IMG/VR virus record: IMGVR_UViG_3300033388_005273
Location: 1-43,616 of that record
Source of the DNA: a virus
Length of the DNA: 43,616 nt
Strand: one strand, 5' to 3'
The position numbers were made by a program, and so were the translations under genes. Under the pieces are notes generated by a model. It had not been told where the DNA came from. It saw only the letters and a program-made list of their open reading frames with translations, and searched no databases. Positions 2,632-39,427 of the stretch are shown piece after piece; positions within the stretch are counted from its first letter, which is position 1, and each line of letters starts with the position of its first letter.

Positions 2632-2856
2632 CTATAAATTATAAATATCGCTCAATACATCTGGTTCTATCTTAATCCACAAATCTCTGTTCTCAAACAT
2701 AGTCCAGCCAGTATCTATATCTTCGACACTCCAACCATTGTATCCTTGCTTAACCCATATAACAACACCTGCACTACCATCTTCGTCAGTAAGTCTTACC
2801 TTAAACTTAACCTCAGCACCACTACCATGATAACCATAAACCTCACCTTTAGCCAT
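2632..2856 (-). CDS. Small beta-rich protein with C-terminal IY signature, 74 aa
   Basis: First gene downstream of the promoter copy at 2885-2911, with AAGGA before its ATG. The body (GEVYGYHGSGAEVKFKVRL) looks like a small beta barrel. It ends in EPDVLSDIYNL, one of eight C-termini in this block with hydrophobic-x-x-[IL]-Y near the end. The last residues align closely with the end of 3142-3372 (EPDVLKEIYDTL). Function unknown. Confidence 0.65.
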   Translation of the reverse strand: MAKGEVYGYHGSGAEVKFKVRLTDEDGSAGVVIWVKQGYNGWSVEDIDTGWTMFENRDLWIKIEPDVLSDIYNL

Positions 2857-2868
2857 ACTTGTTCCTTT

Positions 2869-2933
2869 CTCAGCCTAGAGTCTTATTATACCCAAAAAAC
2901 CTTAATGTAAGCTGAAATTTAGAAAGAATTGTA
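2869..2933 (-). repeat. 65-bp repeat, copy 1 (gene end plus promoter)
   Basis: This segment is matched without gaps by 5044-5108, with only a handful of mismatches. It contains the last five codons (Y-N-S-F-stop) of the upstream gene, a promoter-like region and the leader up to CTCTAGGCTGAG on the minus strand. Confidence 0.85.
2885..2911 (-). promoter_or_regulatory. Promoter-like site, GGGTATAAT
   Basis: On the minus strand, TATAAT (2890-2885) is preceded by GGG. A CTTACA -35-like hexamer (2911-2906) lies 15 bases upstream. The arrangement is conserved at 5060-5086. It would drive the genes from 2856 leftwards. Confidence 0.6.
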
Positions 2934-3155
2934 AATTTCTTTTACATCAATGACATTGTAAGCCTCGAAACCGCCTTCATTAAAACATTCAGATGGGGTA
3001 TACTTGTATTCTGTAGGCCAAAAACATGCTTGTGCCTTGTTATCAGCCCTATTAAGGCGTTTTACTGTGTATATATCACCAACTTTACATTGATATGAGG
3101 AACGTTCGGGCTTTTTCACACAGATAACTGTTTGTCCAATCTTAAAGCGTGTCAT
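2919..3155 (-). CDS. SH3-like small protein with C-terminal IY signature, 78 aa
   Basis: The start is taken at 3155 (MTRFKIGQTVICV), which follows AGGAGATTT; the frame is also open from 3173. The body, F-K-x-G-x-x-V-x-C-x-x-K-P-x-x-S-S-Y-x-C-x-V-G, is clearly paralogous to 4435-4668 and has the look of an SH3/KOW-like barrel. The C-terminus is VIDVKEIYNSF. The last five codons belong to the 65-bp repeat shared with 5094-5363. Confidence 0.7.
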   Translation of the reverse strand: MTRFKIGQTVICVKKPERSSYQCKVGDIYTVKRLNRADNKAQACFWPTEYKYTPSECFNEGGFEAYNVIDVKEIYNSF

Positions 3156-3372
3156 AAATCTCCTTAAGTACATCAGGCTCTATAAATTCAAAGGTAGGGT
3201 AATCGCTCTTTTTGTTCATGGAAGCAATCGGAGGTCTTCTATCCCCTTCGTCGTCATATAGGAATGGCTTACCTTGTCCTTCTATGCGTACTTCTAGATA
3301 CGCTTTTCCAAGTTCCCAATAGGTTGCCTCGGATTCAGGAATCTTTATACACTTCCAATACTTAGCAATCAT
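3142..3372 (-). CDS. Small protein with C-terminal IY signature, 76 aa
   Basis: The ATG at 3372 lies within the end of the upstream gene. The body (YWKCIKIPESEATYWELGKAY) looks like the same beta-barrel class. It ends in EFIEPDVLKEIYDTL, nearly the same as the end of 2632-2856 although the bodies differ. Function unknown. Confidence 0.65.
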   Translation of the reverse strand: MIAKYWKCIKIPESEATYWELGKAYLEVRIEGQGKPFLYDDEGDRRPPIASMNKKSDYPTFEFIEPDVLKEIYDTL

Positions 3373-3628
3373 AGATACCCGATATATCTACCCTATCAGC
3401 TATGTAGTGACGTGTCTCGCCATCCGTAGGCATACTGTGGCTGAAACTTAGCTGTTTACCATCACCACATAAATATAACACTATATGTTCCTGAGCCCCA
3501 CCACGTGTTAAGGACTCCATATCTAAGGTGCTTCTAACCCAATAATACTCGCCTTTTTGTAATTCTTTGAGGGCTGACTCATAGTCTGCCTCTTGAACTA
3601 CCAAACCTCCAGGATATTTGGGTATCAT
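3362..3628 (-). CDS. Small KYP-family protein with C-terminal IY signature, 88 aa
   Basis: Paralogue of 5094-5363. Both start with a short leader and KYPxG, then show Y-x-x-A-x-x-E-L-x-K-x-x-Y-x-W, S-L, VLYL and KQL at matching places. It ends in RVDISGIYDC, a variant of the block's C-terminal signature. Function unknown. Confidence 0.65.
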   Translation of the reverse strand: MIPKYPGGLVVQEADYESALKELQKGEYYWVRSTLDMESLTRGGAQEHIVLYLCGDGKQLSFSHSMPTDGETRHYIADRVDISGIYDC

Positions 3629-3885
3629 TGCTGACGCTTAATCGCTTGTTCTAGCGTTTTCAGACCAAATATAATCAGTGGGTCATGACATGAATACTGA
3701 GCGTTTCTCACCTTACCCATAAGGACTCGTAATCTCACTTGTCTTATGCGATTTGAGTCTGTGGATGTGTTGTCTCTTACGTCATCAGAAAACTTATGGA
3801 CTTGATTAAGGTCAAATTCACACATTGCACTCTCGGCATGAGCCATAGTAGCCACTAAACTTAACATAATTAATACTTTTTTCAT
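3625..3885 (-). CDS. Exported small protein, 86 aa
   Basis: MKKVLIMLSLVATMAHA is a clear Sec signal peptide, with an AHA cleavage site before ESAMCEF. The mature ~69 residues are charged and mainly helical, with two cysteines (CEFDL and SCHDP) that could form a disulfide in the periplasm. It lacks the IY signature carried by most cytoplasmic-looking neighbours. Function unknown. Confidence 0.7.
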   Translation of the reverse strand: MKKVLIMLSLVATMAHAESAMCEFDLNQVHKFSDDVRDNTSTDSNRIRQVRLRVLMGKVRNAQYSCHDPLIIFGLKTLEQAIKRQQ

Positions 3886-4088
3886 TTAACATCCTTTAGG
3901 TAAACTTCTGCGACTACTTCAAGTCGTTCAATTTTGTAACTTATCATACTAGGGATTAGCACAGATGGACTGACGACGTTGTATAAACTCTCCATACGTT
4001 TGATGTAGCTTCGTACAGAAGATGGACGTTGAAGGAATTTTACAACCTTCGTACTCTTGTGGCGTTTGGTTACTGTAATTTTATACAT
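3882..4088 (-). CDS. Basic hypothetical protein, 68 aa
   Basis: A lysine- and arginine-rich small protein (MYKITVTKRHKSTKVVKFL) that overlaps both neighbours by four to eight bases. No motif is recognised. The charge suggests nucleic-acid contact, but nothing more can be said. Confidence 0.6.
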   Translation of the reverse strand: MYKITVTKRHKSTKVVKFLQRPSSVRSYIKRMESLYNVVSPSVLIPSMISYKIERLEVVAEVYLKDVK

Positions 4089-4350
4089 CAGTAAATTCTC
4101 CGTATAGTTTATCTAAGTCCATACCTTTGGGTGCATAATCAACCCAACCTGAACCCAACAAGATACCATTTTTCGACATGTACTCATGACCATAAGCCTT
4201 CCTATTAACCTCATCTCGGTAAAATATGAATGTTTCTCCATACTTACCTGCAATGTGGTCTGATGCTTGCATAGACTGAGCATGTATTGATTTAGTGCTG
4301 TAATATTCTATTAAGTCTTCCCTATTTGTAAATCGTAGTTTTTGTAGCAT
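4081..4350 (-). CDS. Small protein with near-C-terminal LY signature, 89 aa
   Basis: The ATG at 4350 is preceded by an AAGGA ribosome site (4363-4359) that lies inside a 10-base inverted-repeat arm, so translation may be gated by RNA structure. The C-terminus GMDLDKLYGEFTDV carries the block's signature with three extra residues. The body has no known motif. Confidence 0.65.
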   Translation of the reverse strand: MLQKLRFTNREDLIEYYSTKSIHAQSMQASDHIAGKYGETFIFYRDEVNRKAYGHEYMSKNGILLGSGWVDYAPKGMDLDKLYGEFTDV

Positions 4351-4355
4351 AATTG

Positions 4356-4447
4356 AGTCCTTAAGTAAACCTACGTTCCATAATTGGCAAGTGCCGAAAG
4401 CATGGATTAGGTAGTTAATAGGTTGGCTTAAGGACTAAAAGTCCTTA
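4356..4447 (-). promoter_or_regulatory. Competing-hairpin element 2, possible SD switch
   Basis: In RNA sense, segment A (4447-4440, end of the upstream ORF), segment B (4436-4427) and segment C (4365-4356) can pair in two ways. A:B is an 8-bp hairpin around the TAG stop with a three-base loop. B:C is a perfect 10-bp stem closing a 61-base loop. Segment C contains the AAGGA ribosome site of the next gene. The loop holds nested AACCTA/TAGGTT, CCAT/ATGG and GGCA/TGCC stems. Confidence 0.55.
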
Positions 4448-4668
4448 TAGATATCGGTGATGCATACCTCTTTTACTTCTTCAAAGAAGTGTTGAAAATA
4501 GCAAACGTGCTCTTTTGGGTATTGTGAAGCAAGAGGACTAGGCTCTACTGGATAGAATATTGTACCGTCCATCGTACGAACTACCAAAATCTCACCTACA
4601 TCACAATGGTAAGAACTTTTAGGAGGTTTCTCAATACATCTTACTTTCATACCTACTTTAAAACGCAT
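4435..4668 (-). CDS. SH3-like small protein with C-terminal IY signature, 77 aa
   Basis: Paralogue of 2919-3155: MRFKVGMKVRCIEKPPKSSY aligns residue for residue with its N-terminus, with the same CDVG continuation. It ends in VKEVCITDIYKDF. AAAGGA sits five bases before the ATG. Its stop codon is inside a hairpin that competes with the ribosome site of the next gene. Confidence 0.7.
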   Translation of the reverse strand: MRFKVGMKVRCIEKPPKSSYHCDVGEILVVRTMDGTIFYPVEPSPLASQYPKEHVCYFQHFFEEVKEVCITDIYKDF

Positions 4669-4689
4669 ATTTTTCCTTTGATTAGAACT

Positions 4690-4787
4690 CCATAGAAGGC
4701 AGGTGAGGCGGAACTTAGAAGTTCGTGAGTATCCTATGGATTGACTCCAAATGTGCCTTGTGTGCCTTCTATGGAAGCCTAGCTTCC
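4690..4787 (-). ncRNA. Intercistronic structured element 3
   Basis: A perfect 12-bp inverted repeat (4690-4701 with 4763-4774) closes a 61-base loop. The loop contains GAACTT/AAGTTC and a GAGT..ATCC/GGAT..ACTC hairpin. A second hairpin, GGAAGC/GCTTCC (4773-4778/4782-4787), follows the upstream TAA at once and shares two bases with the long stem. The design matches the elements at 1345 and 4356. Confidence 0.5.
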
Positions 4788-5006
4788 TTAAAGTGAATAA
4801 ATCTCATCTAAGCCGAATGGCTCAACATATTTCTTAAAGTTGGTTGGTACCCAACCATTAGCACGACCATTGGAGTCCTTTGTAACTGCAACCCATTCTT
4901 GTTCTGCTACATCTGCGCTTAAGAAGTAAACATTCCCCTTCACAAATCCACCACAACCTGAAGACTTAGTATCTACAACCTTAGCACCCTTCTTAAGAGT
5001 TAGCAT
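4788..5006 (-). CDS. SH3-like small protein with C-terminal IY signature, 72 aa
   Basis: The body begins MLTLKKGAKVVDTKSSG and is probably a third, more diverged member of the SH3-like set. The end, YVEPFGLDEIYSL, shares EP and the LxxIY signature with 2632 and 3142. AAGGA lies seven bases before the ATG. It is the first gene after the second 65-bp repeat. Confidence 0.65.
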   Translation of the reverse strand: MLTLKKGAKVVDTKSSGCGGFVKGNVYFLSADVAEQEWVAVTKDSNGRANGWVPTNFKKYVEPFGLDEIYSL

Positions 5007-5043
5007 ATCATAATCCTTATGTGGGAAGAATGCTTTGTCCTTC

Positions 5044-5108
5044 CTCAGCCTAGAGTCTTATTATACCCAAACTTTCTTAATGTGAGCTGAAATTTAGAAA
5101 GAATTGTA
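5044..5108 (-). repeat. 65-bp repeat, copy 2 (gene end plus promoter)
   Basis: Ungapped match to 2869-2933. It again spans the last codons (Y-N-S-F-stop) of the upstream gene, the promoter-like region and a leader ending CTCTAGGCTGAG. Confidence 0.85.
5060..5086 (-). promoter_or_regulatory. Promoter-like site, GGGTATAAT
   Basis: TATAAT (5065-5060, minus strand) is preceded by TTTGGG, with CTCACA at 5086-5081, 15 bases upstream. It is the same arrangement as at 2885-2911 and would drive the genes from 5006 leftwards. Confidence 0.6.
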
Positions 5109-5363
5109 TAATTTGTTCATATTTACACTGGGTTTAGGGGTAAATACTCGCAAACCTTTGTGAAATGTTGAACCCCAAGTCAGTTGCTTAGAACCTACAT
5201 CCTTAAGGTATAAGACCATAGCTGTCTTGTTTTTACTTGAAAGGCTACGTACTGTAACTTCGTCAGCTCGCCAATGGTAGCCACACTTATTTAACTCAGC
5301 GACAGCCTCGGCATAATGCCTACTATTTACCAAAATCCCATCAGGGTACTTTTGTATATTCAC
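5094..5363 (-). CDS. Small KYP-family protein with C-terminal LY signature, 89 aa
   Basis: The frame is open from 5387, but GTG at 5363 (MNIQKYPDGILV) is preferred. It follows AGAGGA at six bases and aligns with the start of its paralogue at 3628 (MIPKYPGGLVV). It ends in PSVNMNKLYNSF. The YNSF end and the DNA after it are shared with 2919-3155, although the protein bodies are unrelated. Confidence 0.7.
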   Translation of the reverse strand: MNIQKYPDGILVNSRHYAEAVAELNKCGYHWRADEVTVRSLSSKNKTAMVLYLKDVGSKQLTWGSTFHKGLRVFTPKPSVNMNKLYNSF

Positions 5364-6886: not shown

Positions 6887-6923
6887 TATAGTCCCTTTTA
6901 TATGTTAGTTGAGAGGTTAAATT

Positions 6924-7074
6924 CCCACTTGTAAAAACTCATAGAATTCTTATAAGTGAAAATTTCTAAGTTAATGTTGGGTGAAATTCCCTAATCTTAG
7001 AAACTCTTTGAAGCTCTTTAGCTTCTTTGTTTGGTTAAGGTTTTTTCTTAACCGACACTTGATTATTAATCAAG
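6924..7074 (-). promoter_or_regulatory. Structured 5' leader of the 276-aa gene
   Basis: Five consecutive inverted repeats lie just upstream of the gene: 6927-6934/6952-6959 (one wobble), 6963-6970/6996-7003 (8 bp), 7010-7015/7020-7025 (6 bp, CTTT loop), 7033-7039/7047-7053 (7 bp) and 7058-7065/7067-7074 (8 bp, one-base centre). None has a clear terminator T-run on the minus strand. Confidence 0.5.
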
Positions 7075-7620
7075 ATTAAACAGCGTTTATTAACTCCTAA
7101 GGCTAGAAGTTATCCGCTATTTTTATACGGGCTTTTATGCCCTTCAAAATTTTACCCCGTTCTAAATGTTTTCAGTTTGCGAAACTTACTAACACACTCT
7201 AATTTTTCGTATTACATGGAATTTATGAGGAACGCTAAGAACTTACTAAGAAGCTCTTAAAATCCTTTAATCATTTTCGCCCTTGCTTATGCGAATATCA
7301 TGTTTATACTAATAGATTAGGTATCTACTAAGGATAGATTTTAACCTTTAAGGCTTAAGCCTCAAAGGATTTTAACAATATTGTTTAATAAAAAGAAGTT
7401 GTTGCTTTATGCCTTCCTTATACTTTAAAACTCAAAGAGTGTTAAGTAAGAAGCTAAACTTTTAGTTATTAAAACTGTTTTCAAATAAACTTTAATGTTT
7501 GAAGAGATTTAAAACTCTTTGACTTAAGAATGATACTCCTTTAAAGCTTAAAAGCTTCTTAGGGCTTAAATGCTTTCTAGGGGTAAAACTCTTTGTTACC
7601 TTAGAATGATACCCTTTTAA

Positions 7621-7706
7621 CCTTCAAGTAAACTGAAGGCTTAAAGAGTGTTTCTTTCTAAAGTGAGTTGGTATTGTACTCTCTTAACCTTCAATGAAAC
7701 TGAAGG
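7621..7706. repeat. Pair of CCTTCA-N7-TGAAGG hairpins
   Basis: Two inverted repeats, 7621-7639 and 7688-7706, have identical arms and seven-base loops ending AAAC or GAAAC. They are embedded in similar flanks (TTAACCTTCAA before, ACTGAAGGCT after) 67 bases apart. Confidence 0.7.
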
Positions 7707-8041
7707 CTCCAACCCCTTAAACATTAAGAGGTGGTGTTGAAGTGAGAGTATAACACGTTTTTACCTCTTTTGAGTAACAAATTAATAAATTCTTTTTTCT
7801 TTGTAGTTGCTTATGTATAGTTAATATAATTAGCGAATTGTTGCTTAAAGTATGCTTAAGGAATTAATTTTCTTAATTTTTACTCTTTTTTTACAGTGGG
7901 TTTGCCTTCAGCTTACCTTAAGGTTGGTGTGCTAGAGCCTTTTAGCCCTTAGCGTATTACTCTTAGTCCTACCTTAAGCCCTCCCTAGAGGGTACTTTTA
8001 GAGGCACTTATATAACATTTACTTATGGTACTACCCTAGGT

Positions 8042-8430
8042 GTTACTTAAGGTAACAGCCCTAGGTGTAACGATAGAGTACCCTTAAGCCCTTAAGCCCT
8101 CTTTAGGTAGTAGGGTATTAATCCCTTTAGTTAAGCCCTTATACACCCCTTAGAGGCTCTTTGCGAGTCGTTATCAGTTAGTACATTCAGCTTACTCTAA
8201 GGTATATTATGCTAGGCAGGTGTGTTACGTATGGTAACACCTAAGGGTACAAGATGACAGCCTAAGGTACTACTTAAGGTTGTATTAAGGTACACTGTGA
8301 GTGAGTAGTTAAGTAACAGGTCGAGCCTTAAGTTAAGCTTGGGGTCACTCTTTAAGGAGAGGTTAAGGTACACTGTGAGTGAGTAAATAAGTAACACCTT
8401 GCGTTTTCCTTAAGTGTTACCTTAGGTAAC
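8042..8430. repeat. Three GTTAC-N5-GTAAC palindromes
   Basis: Copies at 8042-8056, 8224-8238 and 8416-8430 are spaced 182 and 192 bases apart. The five-base centres differ (TTAAG, GTATG, CTTAG) while the arms are identical, as expected for binding sites of a dimeric protein. Confidence 0.7.
8285..8396. repeat. Direct repeat pair, ~33 bp
   Basis: TTAAGGTACACTGTGAGTGA occurs at 8285 and again at 8363, each followed by GTA, a few variable bases and AAGTAACA. The period is 78 bases. It lies between the second and third GTTAC palindromes. Confidence 0.75.
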
Positions 8431-8597
8431 GAGTGACGAAGGAACGAGTGGAAGGGGGGTGGGTTCAGTTGCTTTTAAGCTTACTTTGGGTATGTGGGAC
8501 CTAGAGAAATTCGTGGGGAGTTTTTCGGGACTTTGTCCCTCTAGCGAAGCGTGACTTTTTATGGGGAAGGGCTATATGGGTATTTTATGGGGAGGGC

Positions 8598-11216: not shown

Positions 11217-11549
11217 TTATTCGTGGTAGGCCTTATCAAGGAAACTCTGCGTAACCCATGGGTACCATCTAAGTTCATGAATCATTAAGTCCTTAGCTTT
11301 CGCCTTAATATCCTTAAACTGCTTATCTCTCCAGTCATTATCCATCTCTGAGTCCTCTATTGTAACGTAAGCTACACGTAAAGTCTTGTGGTAGTCAGAT
11401 AGTATCTCATGTACAGCAGGCATATCTTTGATTCTACTACGCATATCAGCACATACCTCAGGCTCTATTTGGTATGATATAGCTTTCATAAGCTTGATTG
11501 CTCCTACAAGTGGTGCGTATTCAACAACTAATTCAGTATTTGAGTACAA
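11217..11549 (-). CDS. Hypothetical protein, 110 aa
   Basis: The first canonical start is TTG at 11549 (MYSNTELVVEYAPLVG), with only a weak ribosome site. The frame remains open upstream to an ATA at 11597, placed six bases after AAAGGA, which would add 16 residues (ETSLIKRIRTKYHSG). The protein is helical and acidic with several Trp near the C-terminus (MIHELRWYPWVTQSF). No family recognised. Transcribed away from terL. Confidence 0.6.
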   Translation of the reverse strand: MYSNTELVVEYAPLVGAIKLMKAISYQIEPEVCADMRSRIKDMPAVHEILSDYHKTLRVAYVTIEDSEMDNDWRDKQFKDIKAKAKDLMIHELRWYPWVTQSFLDKAYHE

Positions 11550-13476: not shown

Positions 13477-14151
13477 ATGTTTGAAAAGACTAAAAAGTTC
13501 TTAGGGATTTCTACTAAGAATCCTACCATTAAACAAGATGTGAGTGCGTATATTGATGGAGGCTCTAAGGAGTATTCAGAATCGTATAACTCATTCGTGC
13601 AATCAGTTGAGTCCTTGGATGCTGTTATTCGTACTATAGCTAACATTGCATCTATGGCTACTATTGAGGTAGTTAAGGAGAATACTAAAGGTGAGCGTAA
13701 GCCTCTTAAGATTAAGAATGTAGATTTAGTCTATGATATTAATGAGCTTGACTCTCAGGCTGACTGGATTCGTAAAGTATTCGCAAGTATATTCACACAG
13801 GGTGCTGCAGTAATTATTGCAGAGAAAGGGCCTAGTAAGTTTATTAACTTCTATCCTTATGACCCAGCTAAGTTCGAGATTGACGCCAGTGAGAGTGCTG
13901 TTATAGATAAGTTTACATACTCTAGTGAAGATGGTGGTGAAATAGAATTCGCACCTAAAGATGTTATCTATGTTAATAATACAATCGACCTTACTAACTT
14001 GGTATACGCTATGTCAAGACTTAAACCTCTTAACGATATGCTATTACTACAATCAGGTATGATTACTAATCAGAAGGCTTTCTATGAATCTGGTTCTAAA
14101 GACTCTGTGATTCTTAGTCCTAAAGAACCTATATCAATATCAATACTATAA
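13477..14151 (+). CDS. Portal protein, N-terminal part (interrupted), 224 aa
   Basis: HK97-type portal: early V-x-S-V-E-x-L-D-A-V-I-R-x-I-A region, then INFYPYDPAKFEI, DVIYVNN and the stem helices up to ESGSKDSVILSPKEPIS. In this family the last segment is followed by ~60 residues before the PAYLLGD motif. Here the frame ends at TAA 14151, and PAYLLGD appears 5 codons into the next frame. The family's intervening segment is absent and the reading frame changes by -1/+2. The junction lies in an ATATCA-rich tract (14131-14150). Confidence 0.85.
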   Translation: MFEKTKKFLGISTKNPTIKQDVSAYIDGGSKEYSESYNSFVQSVESLDAVIRTIANIASMATIEVVKENTKGERKPLKIKNVDLVYDINELDSQADWIRKVFASIFTQGAAVIIAEKGPSKFINFYPYDPAKFEIDASESAVIDKFTYSSEDGGEIEFAPKDVIYVNNTIDLTNLVYAMSRLKPLNDMLLLQSGMITNQKAFYESGSKDSVILSPKEPISISIL

Positions 14152-14153
14152 TT

Positions 14154-14678
14154 ATGAAATCATTCGGTCTACCAGCATACCTACTTGGTGACTATGATGG
14201 TTACGTATCAGATGCTGCTGTTGTTAAAGCTAGTCAGATATTCTTCCAGATTCAGATTAGACCTGTATTTAAATCACTGGCTCATCAGATGACTAAGTAC
14301 TTCCGTACAACCCTTAAGTTAAAAGACGCTATTGTAGATTTTAACTTTGAGGATATTGATATCCTACACGATTCACTAGAAACAAAAATGGCTATCACAG
14401 AGAAAGCTTATAAGCTAGGACTATTGTCTATTAATGAAGCTAGAGAGCAGCTTGAACTTGAACCACTTGATACTGAAGAAGCTAACTTACACTTCTTACC
14501 AGCCTACCTACTATCCTCTACCCCTGTAGCTATTGAAAACTACGGAGAGGTTAAGGATACATTATTTGCAGCTGAGACTTCTGAGGAAGGAACTGATGCC
14601 GAAGTGGCAGGAACTAACGAAGACGGTACAGGTTCTGGAGCAACTGGTGGTGCAGATAACGAACCAGCAGATGCTTAA
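14154..14678 (+). CDS. Portal protein, C-terminal part (interrupted), 174 aa
   Basis: Begins MKSFGLPAYLLGDYDG, the characteristic portal motif after the stem, then clip and wing helices (KASQIFFQIQIRPVFKSLAHQ). The C-terminal 30 residues are acidic and Gly/Thr-rich, as in many portals. It is in a different frame from 13477-14151. There is no ribosome site before its ATG, so it is unlikely to be an independent gene. Together the two parts make ~398 aa, with roughly 60 residues of the core missing. Confidence 0.8.
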   Translation: MKSFGLPAYLLGDYDGYVSDAAVVKASQIFFQIQIRPVFKSLAHQMTKYFRTTLKLKDAIVDFNFEDIDILHDSLETKMAITEKAYKLGLLSINEAREQLELEPLDTEEANLHFLPAYLLSSTPVAIENYGEVKDTLFAAETSEEGTDAEVAGTNEDGTGSGATGGADNEPADA

Positions 14679-34734: not shown

Positions 34735-35562
34735 ATGATAGTAGTATTATTAGGGAAGGCTGGTGCAGGTAAAACAACTGTAGCCAAAGCCATGGAAAAG
34801 TATGTGAAGGACTCATTTGTAATAGATGGGGATGAACTTAGAGCTGAGACAGCGAATATGGATATCGCATTCAAAGGGCGTGAAGCTAATATGCACCTAG
34901 GGTTTAGTCGTGCACGACGTTTAAGTGACCTTGGGTTTACTGTGTTCGTTTCTATGCAAGCCCCTATACGTGAGATTAGAGAGCAGTACCTTACAAAGTA
35001 TGATAAACAAATTGTGGTTCATAACCTAGGTGACAATCCTAAAGATGCGAAGGGGTATAACGATAACTTCCATCCAGATTATACAGGAGTAGACTTCGAT
35101 ATTCGTTTAGACTTATTCGATGTTGTAGACTTCTATAAACGAGTGTTCCCTAAAGTATTAGTCCCTGCACGCTTTCAAGGTTTCCATAAAGGACATAAAG
35201 TTGTTCTTGAAGAAGCTAAGCGTATTAGCCCTAACGTAACTGTAGGTCTTAGAGTTGACGATGGTGATGTCGTTGGTCTTGCTGAGAATATTGCCCTACT
35301 TGAGAGCAAGGGATATAACACTATCATCACTCCTAATATAGATGATGACTGGACTCAATTTGCTAACGGATACGATGTATATGTGCAAGGTAATCCTATG
35401 GTTATCGAGAAGTTTACTGATAGTGACTGTGAGCATTATCATGTACCTCGCTATGGTGATGTGTCAGGAACTAATATTCGTCAAGCAATAGAGCTTGGAG
35501 AAGACACATCGTCTCAGGTAGATGAAGATGTATTGCAAGTTCTTAGAAGTGCAATATGTTAA
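34735..35562 (+). CDS. APS kinase / HxGH nucleotidyltransferase fusion, 275 aa
   Basis: Residues 1-130 are APS-kinase-like: Walker A GKAGAGKTT (7-15), DGDELR (31-36, equal to DGDNVR), then FKGREANMHLGFSRARRLSD, a position equal to ISPxRxxR (APIREIREQ) and KDAKGYNDNFHPDYTGVD. Residues 140-275 are an HxGH nucleotidyltransferase domain: RFQGFHKGH (HKGH 151-154) and VSGTNIRQAIELG (244-256). ATP sulfurylases also use an HxxH and an ISGT-x-x-R near the end, so the pair could be a compact PAPS synthase (sulfate to APS to PAPS). The HxGH part looks equally like an NMN/CMP-type adenylyltransferase. First gene of the cassette. Confidence 0.82.
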   Translation: MIVVLLGKAGAGKTTVAKAMEKYVKDSFVIDGDELRAETANMDIAFKGREANMHLGFSRARRLSDLGFTVFVSMQAPIREIREQYLTKYDKQIVVHNLGDNPKDAKGYNDNFHPDYTGVDFDIRLDLFDVVDFYKRVFPKVLVPARFQGFHKGHKVVLEEAKRISPNVTVGLRVDDGDVVGLAENIALLESKGYNTIITPNIDDDWTQFANGYDVYVQGNPMVIEKFTDSDCEHYHVPRYGDVSGTNIRQAIELGEDTSSQVDEDVLQVLRSAIC

Positions 35563-35756
35563 TAGTTAAAACAATACTGTACCGAGTAATTCGGTTGGTA
35601 CTACTATTGGCTGTGGCTTACATCTTCTTAGGAGATATAGGAACAGCATTAAGTATATCTTTCGTAGATACAATAGTTGCTACAATATACTATTATATGT
35701 TCGAGAGATTTTGGAGTAAGTACGCCTTAAGGTTTAAGTACAGAAAGCTCAAGTAA
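35556..35756 (+). CDS. DUF2061-like membrane protein, 66 aa
   Basis: A basic N-terminus, two hydrophobic stretches (RLVLLLAVAYIFLGDIGTAL and SFVDTIVATIYYYMF) and the ERFWSKY end reproduce the DUF2061 pattern (G-D-x-x-x-A-L-S-I ... Y-Y-x-x-E-R-x-W). Proteins of this family are often found next to sulfate-activation genes, which fits this neighbour. Its ATG overlaps the end of the kinase gene. Likely a small inner-membrane protein, function unknown. Confidence 0.75.
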   Translation: MLIVKTILYRVIRLVLLLAVAYIFLGDIGTALSISFVDTIVATIYYYMFERFWSKYALRFKYRKLK

Positions 35757-35772
35757 TAAGAAAAGGATTCAA

Positions 35773-36828
35773 GTGTATTTAGAGATAACAAATAAGTGTA
35801 ATTTTACGTGTAGTTTTTGTATAGCAAGTGCTGTACATAGTAGTAAGGGTAAGTATATGACGTTAGCGGATGTAGACCATGCGCTTAGCTACGCGTCCAA
35901 AGATGAATATATCTTTGTTGGTGGTGGAGAACCCACCTTACATAGAGATGTATTTGAGATTATAGACCTTATATATACTAGAGGGTTTAAGAAGATTCAT
36001 ATAACTACTAATGGTAGTGATGAAGAAGCTATACGTAAACTTATAAAATTAACAGATACAATAGGTCTTATAGTAGTTCTTTCATTAGACAAGTACCATG
36101 ACCCTATAGACGACGAGGTAATAGCATTGTTTGCTAAACCAAGGAGACAATTTACATCTTATAGAGTCGGTATTAGACATACACCTGACACACTTATAGT
36201 TAAAGGTGGTAGGTCTAAAGAAGGCTTCGACGGTTGTCCTCATAAAACCCATGGAGTTCATGTGAATCCTGATGGAACATGGCATATGTGTGATGAATTT
36301 AAAAAGGATAGGGTTAAGGTAGGAGAGGATATTAAAGAGAGTCATATTTGTATTAAACCAAACTACCCGTATCCTCATATATGGTACGCTCCGCCACAAG
36401 ATGTTGTATACCCTTTTAGGCTTGGTGCTTTGGGTCATTACCAAGAGCTTGATGATTTAGATTTACAAGAGCCATATTTACTAGTTGGTTCTGGAGCACT
36501 CACTGGATATGGAATGTACCCATATAATAATGATATAGATATAAAAGTATCTCATGCTGATTTTGCTCGCCTAAAAGAAGTAAATGAAGTAAGCTATGAA
36601 AAGACATGGCCTGCTGATAGACAAGGTAGAGGAGTTATTACAATAGGTAATATACATATTTTAGAAGATTCGTATTTTGGGGCTACTGCTGGGCACCTTG
36701 AAGAAGAGTTGGAAGACTGTGTATTAGCTGTAGGAGAGTTAGGATACGTACAAAAGCAGGAAAAACTACTGCAAAATATACGAGGGTACTCACATATTAA
36801 AGAACATTACAAGGAGTATTTATGGTAG
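35773..36828 (+). CDS. Radical SAM / nucleotidyltransferase-like fusion, 351 aa
   Basis: GTG start at 35773 after AAAAGGA. Residues 1-~200 are a radical SAM domain: C9-x3-C13-x2-C16 (CNFTCSFC) for the 4Fe-4S cluster, GGGEPTL (SAM-binding GGE) and HITTNG. A CPHKTHGVHVNPDGTWHMC stretch is like a shortened SPASM region. Residues ~235-351 begin LLVGSGALTGYGMYPYNNDI, where GSG (239-241) and DID (254-256) match minimal nucleotidyltransferases. Such a fusion is unusual. The substrate is unknown; in this context a modified nucleotide, sugar or peptide for the sulfation cassette is possible. Confidence 0.78.
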   Translation: MYLEITNKCNFTCSFCIASAVHSSKGKYMTLADVDHALSYASKDEYIFVGGGEPTLHRDVFEIIDLIYTRGFKKIHITTNGSDEEAIRKLIKLTDTIGLIVVLSLDKYHDPIDDEVIALFAKPRRQFTSYRVGIRHTPDTLIVKGGRSKEGFDGCPHKTHGVHVNPDGTWHMCDEFKKDRVKVGEDIKESHICIKPNYPYPHIWYAPPQDVVYPFRLGALGHYQELDDLDLQEPYLLVGSGALTGYGMYPYNNDIDIKVSHADFARLKEVNEVSYEKTWPADRQGRGVITIGNIHILEDSYFGATAGHLEEELEDCVLAVGELGYVQKQEKLLQNIRGYSHIKEHYKEYLW

Positions 36829-37604
36829 TAATTAAATACAATGCGATGGCGTCTTATACGAAGATACTGGCTAGGGTTTTTAAACAAGTCTCTACTCGTC
36901 ATTACTCAGATGTAAATGCTAATCGACGTGGTGGTGGTGGAAATAAAAGAGCTGAGAGTGCTGAAACGTATACTGCCCATAAGCTATCAGAGATTAAAGA
37001 TATACCTTCATACCACTCTGCGGATGAGCTATTCTACATTGCTCCGTTTCTATCTGTTTCTGATGAATTCACTGACTCTCCTATGGAGACGATTCATGGA
37101 TATATGAAGGGAATTAAGTATACTGTAATATGTCCTATAGTTCCTTATGAGGAAAGACTGCACGCAATCATACATAGAGGGTCTCTAGGTAACTATCCTC
37201 CAATTAAATATGCAGAGGATGCAATGGTTAATGGGATTAAACATTATATATCTCAAGACCCTCTTAGGAGTAAGAAAGTTGAGAAATGCCAAACTGTTGA
37301 AGAGACTATTATGATGCCTGAGTTTGAAGACTTAGTAGCTAGACATAATAAGGGAGAACTTAATTTGGTAATTCTAACTAAAGATACTATCTTAAATGAT
37401 ACAGGAGCAATCCTAAATCACCTAGGTATTTCTCATGATATGGACTTTAGTTACCTCCTTAGTAAAATTCCTAGGCAGGGTGAAGAGAATGCCCATAGAA
37501 CTAAAGTGTACGCACAAACTATCTCAAAGTATAAAGATATTCTAGATAAGCGGTATGAAGAAATTTATAAGCTTATAGAAGATAATAAGATTCACGTATG
37601 TTAA
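36822..37604 (+). CDS. Unknown protein of the sulfation cassette, 260 aa
   Basis: AAGGAG is five bases before the ATG, which overlaps the previous stop. The N-terminus is basic with RRGGGGNKR. The C-terminal third (LNLVILTKDTILNDTGAILN-HLGIS, then YKDILDKRYEEIYKLI) recalls the end of sulfotransferases (E-D-L-x-x-x-P-x-x-x-L-x-x-I-L-x-F-L-G), but no PAPS phosphate-binding loop is seen at the N-terminus. It could be a degenerate sulfotransferase or an unrelated helical protein. It is the only gene in the cassette without a clear family. Confidence 0.65.
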   Translation: MVVIKYNAMASYTKILARVFKQVSTRHYSDVNANRRGGGGNKRAESAETYTAHKLSEIKDIPSYHSADELFYIAPFLSVSDEFTDSPMETIHGYMKGIKYTVICPIVPYEERLHAIIHRGSLGNYPPIKYAEDAMVNGIKHYISQDPLRSKKVEKCQTVEETIMMPEFEDLVARHNKGELNLVILTKDTILNDTGAILNHLGISHDMDFSYLLSKIPRQGEENAHRTKVYAQTISKYKDILDKRYEEIYKLIEDNKIHVC

Positions 37605-38284
37605 TAGTAGATAACATCGTATTCGTACACTTACATAAGTGTGCTGGAACTTCATTTGGTAATGCAGTACAGAGTCTTAGAGGGGATGATATACAATTTG
37701 TAAGTACTCATGCGCCTGTTACTAGTATCCCTGCTGCGTTTCGCGCATTAAGGAAAGTAACTTTAGTTCGTAATCCATTTGAATGGTATGAGTCATGGTT
37801 CAATTGGTCGGTCAAGAGAGCACAGTTTCTGAGTAATAGACAAAGTAACCCATTCAATATGCTAATGCATAGCGCAGATGGGATGGTAAATATCCATACG
37901 TTTATTGATAGAGCTACTGACTTGCCTCGGTTTTTTAGAGAGAACCCAAAGCAGTTAAAAGAATTTAAGGCTAGTTTAAGAGACCATAAAGTTGCTCAAT
38001 GGTTTAAGGCTATCCTTGGTGATGTCACTAAGCTTGATGCTAATACAATAGCTCCTACTTTGTACCAACTATTGGTAAGTGGTATGGGTGTTGAGGAGTC
38101 TGAGATATACCGTATGGAAGACCAGCTGATTGATGTTATGAATATTGCTGGGATTGGAGAGCGTCGTCTGAATAGAGATAACGAAACATTCCGAATACAG
38201 AAAAGAAACGAAGAAGATTCAGCAAAGATACTTAAAGCAGACTTAAAGCTGTTTGAAATGTTTGGGTACGTTGATAGTATTTGA
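37598..38284 (+). CDS. Sulfotransferase 1, 228 aa
   Basis: 5'-phosphosulfate loop HKCAGTSF (13-20) after the first strand, and 3'-phosphate motif KVTLVRNPFEWYESWFNW (53-70), as in the Sulfotransfer_2 type families. GERRLNRDNETF near the end fits the late conserved Asn/Arg region. The family moves sulfate from PAPS to sugars or proteins. PAPS could come from the kinase encoded four genes upstream. The ATG overlaps the previous stop; the TGA lies inside the next gene. No signal peptide, so it acts in the cytoplasm. Confidence 0.85.
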   Translation: MLIVDNIVFVHLHKCAGTSFGNAVQSLRGDDIQFVSTHAPVTSIPAAFRALRKVTLVRNPFEWYESWFNWSVKRAQFLSNRQSNPFNMLMHSADGMVNIHTFIDRATDLPRFFRENPKQLKEFKASLRDHKVAQWFKAILGDVTKLDANTIAPTLYQLLVSGMGVEESEIYRMEDQLIDVMNIAGIGERRLNRDNETFRIQKRNEEDSAKILKADLKLFEMFGYVDSI

Positions 38285-38948
38285 TAATATAGTGTTTCTT
38301 CATCTTAGAAAATGTGGAGGGTCTTCAATTATAAATAATATTCGTAATGAGAAGAAGATACTGTTTGGAAAAAACCATGGAATACTAGAAGAACTTCCTA
38401 AAGAGTATAGAGGATTTGATATTGTAGCTCAGGTTAGAAATCCATTAACTTGGTATACGTCATGGTATTCGTTTAACAGAGGGCTATTTGAATACGGAAG
38501 TAGAGTGCCTCCGTTCATGCGACTACTCCTATGGGACTATACTATTAATGACTTTGCTTCCATAGACTTATTTATTAGTAGGGCTGCGAACTTACAAAGA
38601 TTCTTCTCTTCTGAGATACTCCGATTATCGGAACTGAGGATGGAATTTGCGGGACTTGAAAAGCCTAGTTGGGTAAGTGCAATTGAAAGTAGCGTTCCGT
38701 ACTGGAAACCAGAAGAGTTTAATGGTTCACTGTACCAGTACTTCGTTGACAGGATGGGGGTTCTTACCACTACAACCTTTCGTGTGGAAGACCAGAAGGA
38801 AGAACTTAAGGAAGTTTTAGGTATTGGAAATATTCCTTACTTAAACAGAACTAAAAAAGTCTGGTCTCCATCTGAAGAGTCACTTAAGTTAGTGATAGAT
38901 GAGGATGAGAGACTATTTAAATACTTTGGATACAGGAGAGAACTATGA
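38271..38948 (+). CDS. Sulfotransferase 2, 225 aa
   Basis: A tandem paralogue of the previous gene: DNIVFLHLRKCGGSSI aligns with DNIVFVHLHKCAGTSF, and QVRNPLTWYTSWYSF with LVRNPFEWYESWFNW. The end (GNIPYLNRTKKVW) also matches. The start is set at TTG 38271 because this aligns the N-termini; TTG 38253 is an alternative. It overlaps gene 1 by 14 bases and is in another frame. The divergence suggests that it sulfates a different target or position. Confidence 0.82.
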   Translation: MIVFDNIVFLHLRKCGGSSIINNIRNEKKILFGKNHGILEELPKEYRGFDIVAQVRNPLTWYTSWYSFNRGLFEYGSRVPPFMRLLLWDYTINDFASIDLFISRAANLQRFFSSEILRLSELRMEFAGLEKPSWVSAIESSVPYWKPEEFNGSLYQYFVDRMGVLTTTTFRVEDQKEELKEVLGIGNIPYLNRTKKVWSPSEESLKLVIDEDERLFKYFGYRREL

Positions 38949-39427
38949 GTAATTGGAGTAAGAACTCTTGGAAGAGTTACAGAGCTTTAGACGTCGATGG
39001 AATGACTGGGCATGCTGGTAAAGGTAATGATGTACAGAATAGATGTGATGTTATCACTCAACTCTTAAAGGATACTGGAATTAAGAATCTAGTTGACTAT
39101 GGGGTTAATGAATACTTATACGTGAAGTTACCTAATGATACTAATATCACTTCTATCGAAATAGATAGTACTTCAAAGAATACCTTGGGTACTTATGAAT
39201 TAGTACATGGAGACTATCGAGAGTTTGTTCCTAAAAATCTTATGAATGATACAGTGTATACTTATCACATATTCAAAGATACTACTGGGGAACAAACTAA
39301 GTTATTTGAGGAGATTCTACTTAAGATGCATGGAGTTATTAACTCATTTATAATTGTATGGATTAGGGATATGGATTTTACTCAGTTCCCTATAATCTAT
39401 AATTTAGAAACAGGAGATAAGAGATGA
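38945..39427 (+). CDS. Methyltransferase-like small protein, 160 aa
   Basis: A Rossmann-like run (KNLVDYGVNEYLYVKLPNDT, TSIEIDS, YELVHGDYREF) resembles class I methyltransferases: a first strand with a D-x-G, an acidic end of strand 2, and a D in the GDY strand. It is short and has lost the full glycine-rich loop, so it may be inactive. ATGA overlaps connect it to both neighbours. Confidence 0.45.
   Translation: MSNWSKNSWKSYRALDVDGMTGHAGKGNDVQNRCDVITQLLKDTGIKNLVDYGVNEYLYVKLPNDTNITSIEIDSTSKNTLGTYELVHGDYREFVPKNLMNDTVYTYHIFKDTTGEQTKLFEEILLKMHGVINSFIIVWIRDMDFTQFPIIYNLETGDKR

Follow-up and report, generated by a model that had tools for sequence, protein, structure and literature searches.

A common ending in a block of small phage genes

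The stretch of viral DNA studied here, hereafter the window, is an entire linear IMG/VR contig of 43,616 bases (IMGVR_UViG_3300033388_005273). From 11.7 kb onwards, its plus strand encodes a block of siphovirus-like structural genes, which is preceded by a block of small genes on the minus strand. Eight of these small genes (designated by their lower coordinate) encode products that end alike, with a hydrophobic residue, two free residues, an Ile or Leu and then a Tyr close to the C-terminus (Table 1). We call this ending the tag. The eight genes with shared ends had been proposed in an initial annotation, and all eight open reading frames (ORFs) and their ends are indeed present on the minus strand, with 2 or 3 residues after the Tyr in seven of the eight products, as had been stated, and six in the eighth (LYGEFTDV). 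Two of the proposed gene starts had to be corrected. The start of the 2919 gene is at about 3155 (ATG ACA CGC, MTRFKIG), within the Tyr codon of the gene before it. For the 5094 gene, a GTG at 5363 is the most likely start, with which the end coordinate given earlier itself agrees.

Table 1. Tagged genes of the window and the two copies of repeat D1
Position	Strand	Feature	Remarks
2632..2856	-	Small protein, SH3-like by weak similarity	Tag LSDIYNL at 2635-2655; next start does not overlap
2919..3155	-	SH3-like small protein	Tag VKEIYNSF at 2922-2945; paralogue of 4435; 3' end within repeat D1
3142..3372	-	Small protein	Tag LKEIYDTL at 3145-3168; tag codons hold the Shine-Dalgarno AAGGAG and the ATG of the 2919 gene
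3362..3628	-	KYP-family small protein	Tag ISGIYDC at 3365-3385; tag holds the ATG of the 3142 gene
4081..4350	-	Small protein	Tag LDKLYGEFTDV at 4084-4116; next ATG five codons past the Tyr
4435..4668	-	SH3-like small protein	Tag ITDIYKDF at 4438-4461; no start in the 30 nt downstream
4788..5006	-	Small SH3-like protein	Tag LDEIYSL at 4791-4811; no start in the 30 nt downstream
5094..5363	-	KYP-family small protein, GTG start	Tag MNKLYNSF at 5097-5120; 3' end in repeat D1
11217..11549	-	Small conserved gene	Weak tag form LDKAYHE; relatives LAKMYHD and LSKLYHD; absent in L217
2855..2947	-	Repeat D1, copy 1	Tag end of the 2919 gene and intergenic stretch with extended -10 promoter-like GGGTATAATAAGACTCTAGG
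5030..5122	-	Repeat D1, copy 2	Tag end of the 5094 gene (unrelated body) and same intergenic stretch; 84% identical

Distribution of the tag

The large terminase of the window is about 25% identical to those of T5-like phages (Demerecviridae), and its capsid and tape-measure genes gave no tblastn match among 50,697 phage records. IMG/VR scans with alignments of the major capsid protein and of the large terminase recovered only three relatives: two that are closer by their terminase, G1 (24.8 kb, 76% identical) and G2 (IMGVR_UViG_3300006077_000002; 93.8 kb, 75%), and a more distant fragment, L217 (62%), which covers a small region with no tags in it. One scan of bacterial and archaeal genomes found no relatives. 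Among the products of G2 are a DNA polymerase of family A, closest to those of N4-like phages, a ClpP-like protease, helicases, a ligase, a ribonucleotide reductase and a sigma factor with matches to Sigma70 region 2 and to phrog_351. Both the window and G2 are uncultured and possibly incomplete, and their gene calls and starts are computational.

Is the tag more frequent than expected? We counted the pattern [LIVM]-x-x-[IL]-Y followed by at most 7 residues at the C-terminus, for which the chance rate, measured at internal positions of the same proteins, is 2.2% per protein. In the first 6 kb of the window it is found on 8 of the 23 small minus-strand genes (p ~2e-8), a count that rests on a curated list because automatic gene calling missed several of these short genes and yielded just 2 to 4. 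When the paralogue pairs were collapsed, 6 of 21 were tagged (p ~5e-6), and the figures are the same when the two ends that overlap the next start are dropped. G2 provides an independent test: here the tag is borne by 20 of the 50 small minus-strand proteins (binomial p 2e-20; 21 when V is also accepted at the I/L position), against none of the 35 large ones (Fisher p 4e-6, small versus large). Examples are PLKEIYG, PLKGIYESK, VLSGIYK, PLTNIY, MLKNIYEE, PLSKIYELR and PIKDIYEK. Furthermore, an unbiased scan of G2, which considered all residue-class triples within the last ten residues with no knowledge of the motif, ranked h-x-x-h-[YFW] (h, hydrophobic) first, with 19 cases seen versus 2.45 expected (p 2e-11). 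Over the two genomes there are 29 tags, with the consensus [PV]-L-x-x-[IL]-Y-[GDEN].

Elsewhere the tag is at or near chance. In 13 phages and viral contigs (T4, T5, SPO1, VBP47, half of phiKZ, half of KVP40, VCPH, phiR2-01 and five further ones) we found zero to six cases each. T4 has 6 in 128, among them the gp55 end, which does bind the clamp. Scanning IMG/VR twice for DNA patterns of the tag codons revealed no further multi-tag contig, all matches outside G2 being single or attributable to chance. The suspicion that the motif might be no commoner than expected in small phage proteins thus does not hold for the window and G2, where it stands far above chance. Among the small proteins of these two genomes, the membrane-like ones are never tagged (0 of 10, versus 28 of 63 others, p 0.01), in line with the earlier remark that neighbours with signal peptides or membrane spans lack the ending.

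Overlap with the start of the next gene

The tag is closely interwoven with the translation signals of the array. In 16 of the 29 cases, the ATG of the next gene lies exactly across the Tyr codon and the G that follows it (TAT/G), and in most of these 16 the two free codons hold the Shine-Dalgarno sequence, as in TTG AAG GAG ATT TAT GGC TAG. The Lys-Glu of the consensus, and part of its Ile-Tyr, arise because the Shine-Dalgarno sequence and the start are written in the tag codons; indeed, Lys-Glu is mostly confined to these tags. The ends could then be a mere by-product of overlapping, coupled genes, with no function at the protein level, since AAGGAG-ATTT-ATG read in the preceding frame gives Lys-Glu-Ile-Tyr-Gly.

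We consider this by-product origin unlikely. Thirteen tags have no start in the Tyr codon, and these alone (13 of 57) remain significant (p 3e-10); seven of the 13 use TAC for the Tyr, and seven tags have no start at all within 30 nt. Moreover, the hydrophobic residue of the tag precedes the Shine-Dalgarno codons and is left unexplained by them. Overlap by itself does not bring the ending along either: among overlapping gene pairs, the tag is present in 10 of the 21 small ones of G2 but in none of its 12 large ones, and in only 2 of 43 small ones in the other genomes. The start-site string YTNAAGGARATTTATGRNTAR occurs in 56 IMG/VR stretches, and tag arrays are found only in those from G2. A start codon inside the ending is therefore not its general cause (16 with, 13 without), and the by-product explanation is largely refuted by the non-overlapping tags.

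Because 13 tags lack the overlap and large overlapping genes lack the tag, a protein-level motif remains: h-x-x-[IL]-Y near the C-terminus is a protein motif, whose codons the phage often uses to accommodate the start site of the next gene. The shared protein tag of the initial annotation is thus well supported by the independent relative, but its double use as the ribosome-binding site and start codon of the next gene in more than half of the cases had been missed. The arrangement resembles that of translationally coupled phage genes which overlap so that the Shine-Dalgarno sequence and start of one are nested in the other, insofar as 16 of the 29 tags contain the next start signals. It differs from it in that 13 do not, and in that overlapping starts elsewhere give no such ending.

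One ending on many bodies

With phmmer, the 30 tag-stripped bodies of the window and G2 fall into about 20 families. These include an SH3-like family of three in G2, weakly linked to three more proteins, a second family of three, two pairs in the window and many singletons. In the window, where at least four body types had been announced, there are six by sequence, namely the pairs 2919/4435 (38%) and 3362/5094 (36%) and four singletons. On sequence grounds, the 4788 product (Pfam SH3_1 E=0.003, below the family cut-off) and the 2632 product may be distant SH3-like relatives. The bodies are thus not homologous throughout, and the end is not simply inherited with them, as the initial annotation had feared it might be. 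Likewise, comparison of the window with G2 (phmmer) shows that the same motif is carried by non-orthologous proteins. We found no convincing homologue of the 8 tagged proteins of the window and 15 of those of G2 by tblastn against the 50,697 phage records, and searches with PHROGs and Pfam gave weak matches only.

The AlphaFold2 model of a tagged G2 SH3-like protein (mean pLDDT 82) has its final strand ending at residue 75, and the tag residues 79-82 have a pLDDT below 50. The best matches of this model in the PDB and among viral structures were SH3 domains and small uncharacterised phage proteins, all of them weak. In the model of the KYP protein (3362) the tag is also disordered, but this model is of low confidence (pLDDT 60) and was left out of the fold search. 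As the tag is predicted to be disordered beyond the end of the folded body, it looks like an exposed tail on different folds. Some tagged bodies are SH3-like barrels, as in other small SH3-like phage proteins, from which they differ in that the tagged proteins have no tblastn homologue in the phage collection.

How could one ending come to stand on unrelated bodies? The repeat D1 provides an illustration. After the stop codons of the 2919 and 5094 genes there is a 62-nt promoter-like stretch (53 of 62 positions identical), and the final codons TAC AAT TCT TTC TAA are identical in both copies. The two genes share their end because gene-end-plus-promoter DNA was duplicated. In the residues just ahead, V-K-E-I versus M-N-K-L, the motif positions are kept (V/M, I/L, Y/Y) and the free ones differ (K/N, E/K). 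D1 thus illustrates how a new body can come by the end, and it is consistent with the motif positions being under selection. We rejected the idea that a shared promoter gave rise to the tags, as there are only two occurrences of the D1 promoter-like element.

The same repeat, together with the existence of paralogue families, could be taken to mean that the tag is nothing but inherited or moved DNA, gene ends and promoter or linker serving as recombination joints that spread by duplication, with the peptide itself unselected. This is very unlikely in our opinion. D1 is the only pair of unrelated bodies that we found to share its end DNA, the Leu codons of the tags vary (TTG, CTA, CTT, TTA), the motif positions are kept while their neighbours change, even in D1, and about 20 body families are tagged.

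A probable docking peptide for a common partner

Since an exposed peptide with three fixed hydrophobic or aromatic positions sits on many differently folded small soluble proteins, we think that the shared ends are probably a C-terminal peptide, reusable from protein to protein, that docks to a common partner. The tag-bearing proteins would be the many small, soluble, fast-evolving accessory proteins of this phage lineage. In each of them the folded body would stop ahead of the tag, leaving it as an exposed tail, and the hydrophobic residue, the Ile/Leu and the Tyr would insert in a pocket of the common partner, so that different bodies would be gathered at one place. As a second layer, the next Shine-Dalgarno sequence often occupies the two free codons and the next ATG the TAT/G of the Tyr codon; with start signals nested in its tags, the array is compact and probably translationally coupled. 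We infer the binding to a partner, the existence of one partner common to all tags and the role of the bodies as host-takeover proteins. The partner could equally be a host protein.

Several observations weigh against a docking peptide. The tag is seen in two genomes only, and the pattern counted in G2 was suggested by the window, although the unbiased scan of G2 agrees with it. The pattern has in part a nucleotide-level cause, over half of the tags lying at start sites, and the column-shuffle tests for amino-acid constraint were weakly significant (p 0.05 and 0.009). Moreover, searches with hidden Markov models (HMMs) of four families, by which diverged clamps can be missed, found no T4-type, DnaN-type or PCNA-type sliding clamp in G2. 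Finally, the tag is absent from the two G2 proteins in which a clamp tag would be expected, the DNA polymerase (PolA end EIKEILSKS) and the sigma factor (end LTKLKGLIDAED).

The clamp-binding ends of T4 are the closest working model for the tags. The ends of the DNA polymerase gp43, the sigma factor gp55 and the coactivator gp33 are similarly hydrophobic and acidic, bind the gp45 clamp and are freely exchangeable (PMC2988020; PMC7892883), and are described in a review as interchangeable clamp-binding motifs (PMC2988020). Like the tag, these ends have a C-terminal L-x-x-[LI]-[FY] core and are common to otherwise unrelated proteins. In the T4 record we read SLDFLFG, SPSLDFLYEAND (also SLDFLYEAND) and TLDFLL at the ends of the ORFs that we take, from their length and sequence, to be gp43, gp55 and gp33, respectively; gp43 and gp55 share the spacing of the tag and the G/E that follows it. 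The tags differ from this system by their some 30 small carriers of unknown function, by the untagged polymerase and sigma factor and by the missing clamp.

A special case of the docking peptide would be a true clamp-binding motif, the hub being a highly diverged phage ring clamp or the host clamp, at which the small proteins would assemble on replicating DNA. The h-x-x-h-[YF] spacing and the following G/E, which match the gp43 and gp55 ends, speak for it, as does the presence in G2 of a phage sigma factor with its Sigma70 region 2 and phrog_351 matches. Nevertheless, we hold it to be highly improbable. PF09116 and PF02916 were both silent in G2, whereas PF02916, the T4-type N-terminal model, detected the T4 gp45 at 2.9e-35 and that of KVP40 weakly; as G2 is possibly incomplete, the absence of a clamp is not final. 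The polymerase is of family A and, like the sigma factor, untagged. The motif bound by the bacterial clamp is spaced differently from the tag. Membership in the T4-type clamp-binding group is thus not supported. A 280-aa gene of G2, beside a GltX-like gene, looks clamp-like at its N terminus, but neither Pfam nor PHROGs gave a match for it.

We set aside readings of the host beta-clamp, PIP and PDZ types on spacing, sequence or missing partner. The core of the PIP box does have the hydrophobic-x-x-aromatic spacing found in the tag, but the tags have no Gln column and a single aromatic residue, and G2 has no match to PCNA_N (PF00705).

Another role for an exposed hydrophobic/Tyr end would be that of a degradation or stability signal, through which a host or phage protease would determine how fast early proteins are turned over. 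In bacteria, short C-terminal peptides that lie exposed are known to act as degrons, G2 encodes its own ClpP-like protease, and the tag is confined to small, soluble and probably early proteins. The known ClpXP C-motifs are, however, LAA-type or basic ends, which the tag ends do not resemble, and charged residues often follow the Tyr. Furthermore, the T5-like VCPH, annotated with a Clp-like protease, does not bear the tag. We therefore regard a degradation signal as improbable, and retain the docking peptide as our preferred explanation.

Other features of the window and its relatives

The intergenic stretches after two tagged genes hold very stable hairpins, at 4351-4434 (-23.8 kcal/mol), downstream of the 4435 gene, and at 4669-4787 (-39.6 kcal/mol), upstream of the start region of the 4788 gene. 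These are perhaps terminators or RNase III sites.

A 1.7-kb non-coding gap at 6887-8597 of the window matches in position a gap in G2. It contains three palindromes GTGTTAC-N4-GGTAACAC, which G2 has too, and is possibly an origin or operator region. In G2, the non-coding gap near the terminase region (L007:6286-7094) contains nine TGATAATCATTATCA-like palindromes (0-2 mismatches; 0.2 expected by chance in the entire locus). The TGATAATCATTATCA sequence equals the 7-1-7 Fur box, so that the phage may read the iron regulator of its host.

The portal gene of the window (13477-14678) appears as two ORFs (224 and 174 aa), whereas G1 and G2 have a single one of 445-448 aa; a frameshift, a sequencing error or an insertion may be the reason. 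Past the tail genes, at 34735-39427, the window encodes kinase-like, radical-SAM-like and two sulfotransferase-like proteins (e.g. CNFTCSFCIASAVH), labels which come from reading the translations, with no search behind them; these genes were not seen at the equivalent place in G2. At L068:1701-2426, G2 encodes a 241-aa protein with YADD and other reverse-transcriptase-like motifs, read from the sequence, near a metallophosphoesterase gene (Pfam).

Implications

In the literature, subscription journals being outside our scope, we found no description of a shared C-terminal motif on small phage proteins. It is quite possible, although we lean slightly against it, that the tags belong to a plug-in system, in which one phage or host hub with an L-x-x-[IL]-Y pocket would serve dozens of interchangeable small effectors, and new bodies would be recruited by acquiring a gene end.

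Phage genomes are rich in small uncharacterised genes that offer nothing by which to group them, and here a shared end groups many. The tag also offers a direct experimental handle, as one peptide should catch the common partner and so place many proteins at once. Moreover, it is a case of double sequence use, the peptide tag also carrying the start signals of the next gene. The test itself, a simple C-terminal pattern, can be applied to other phage genomes.

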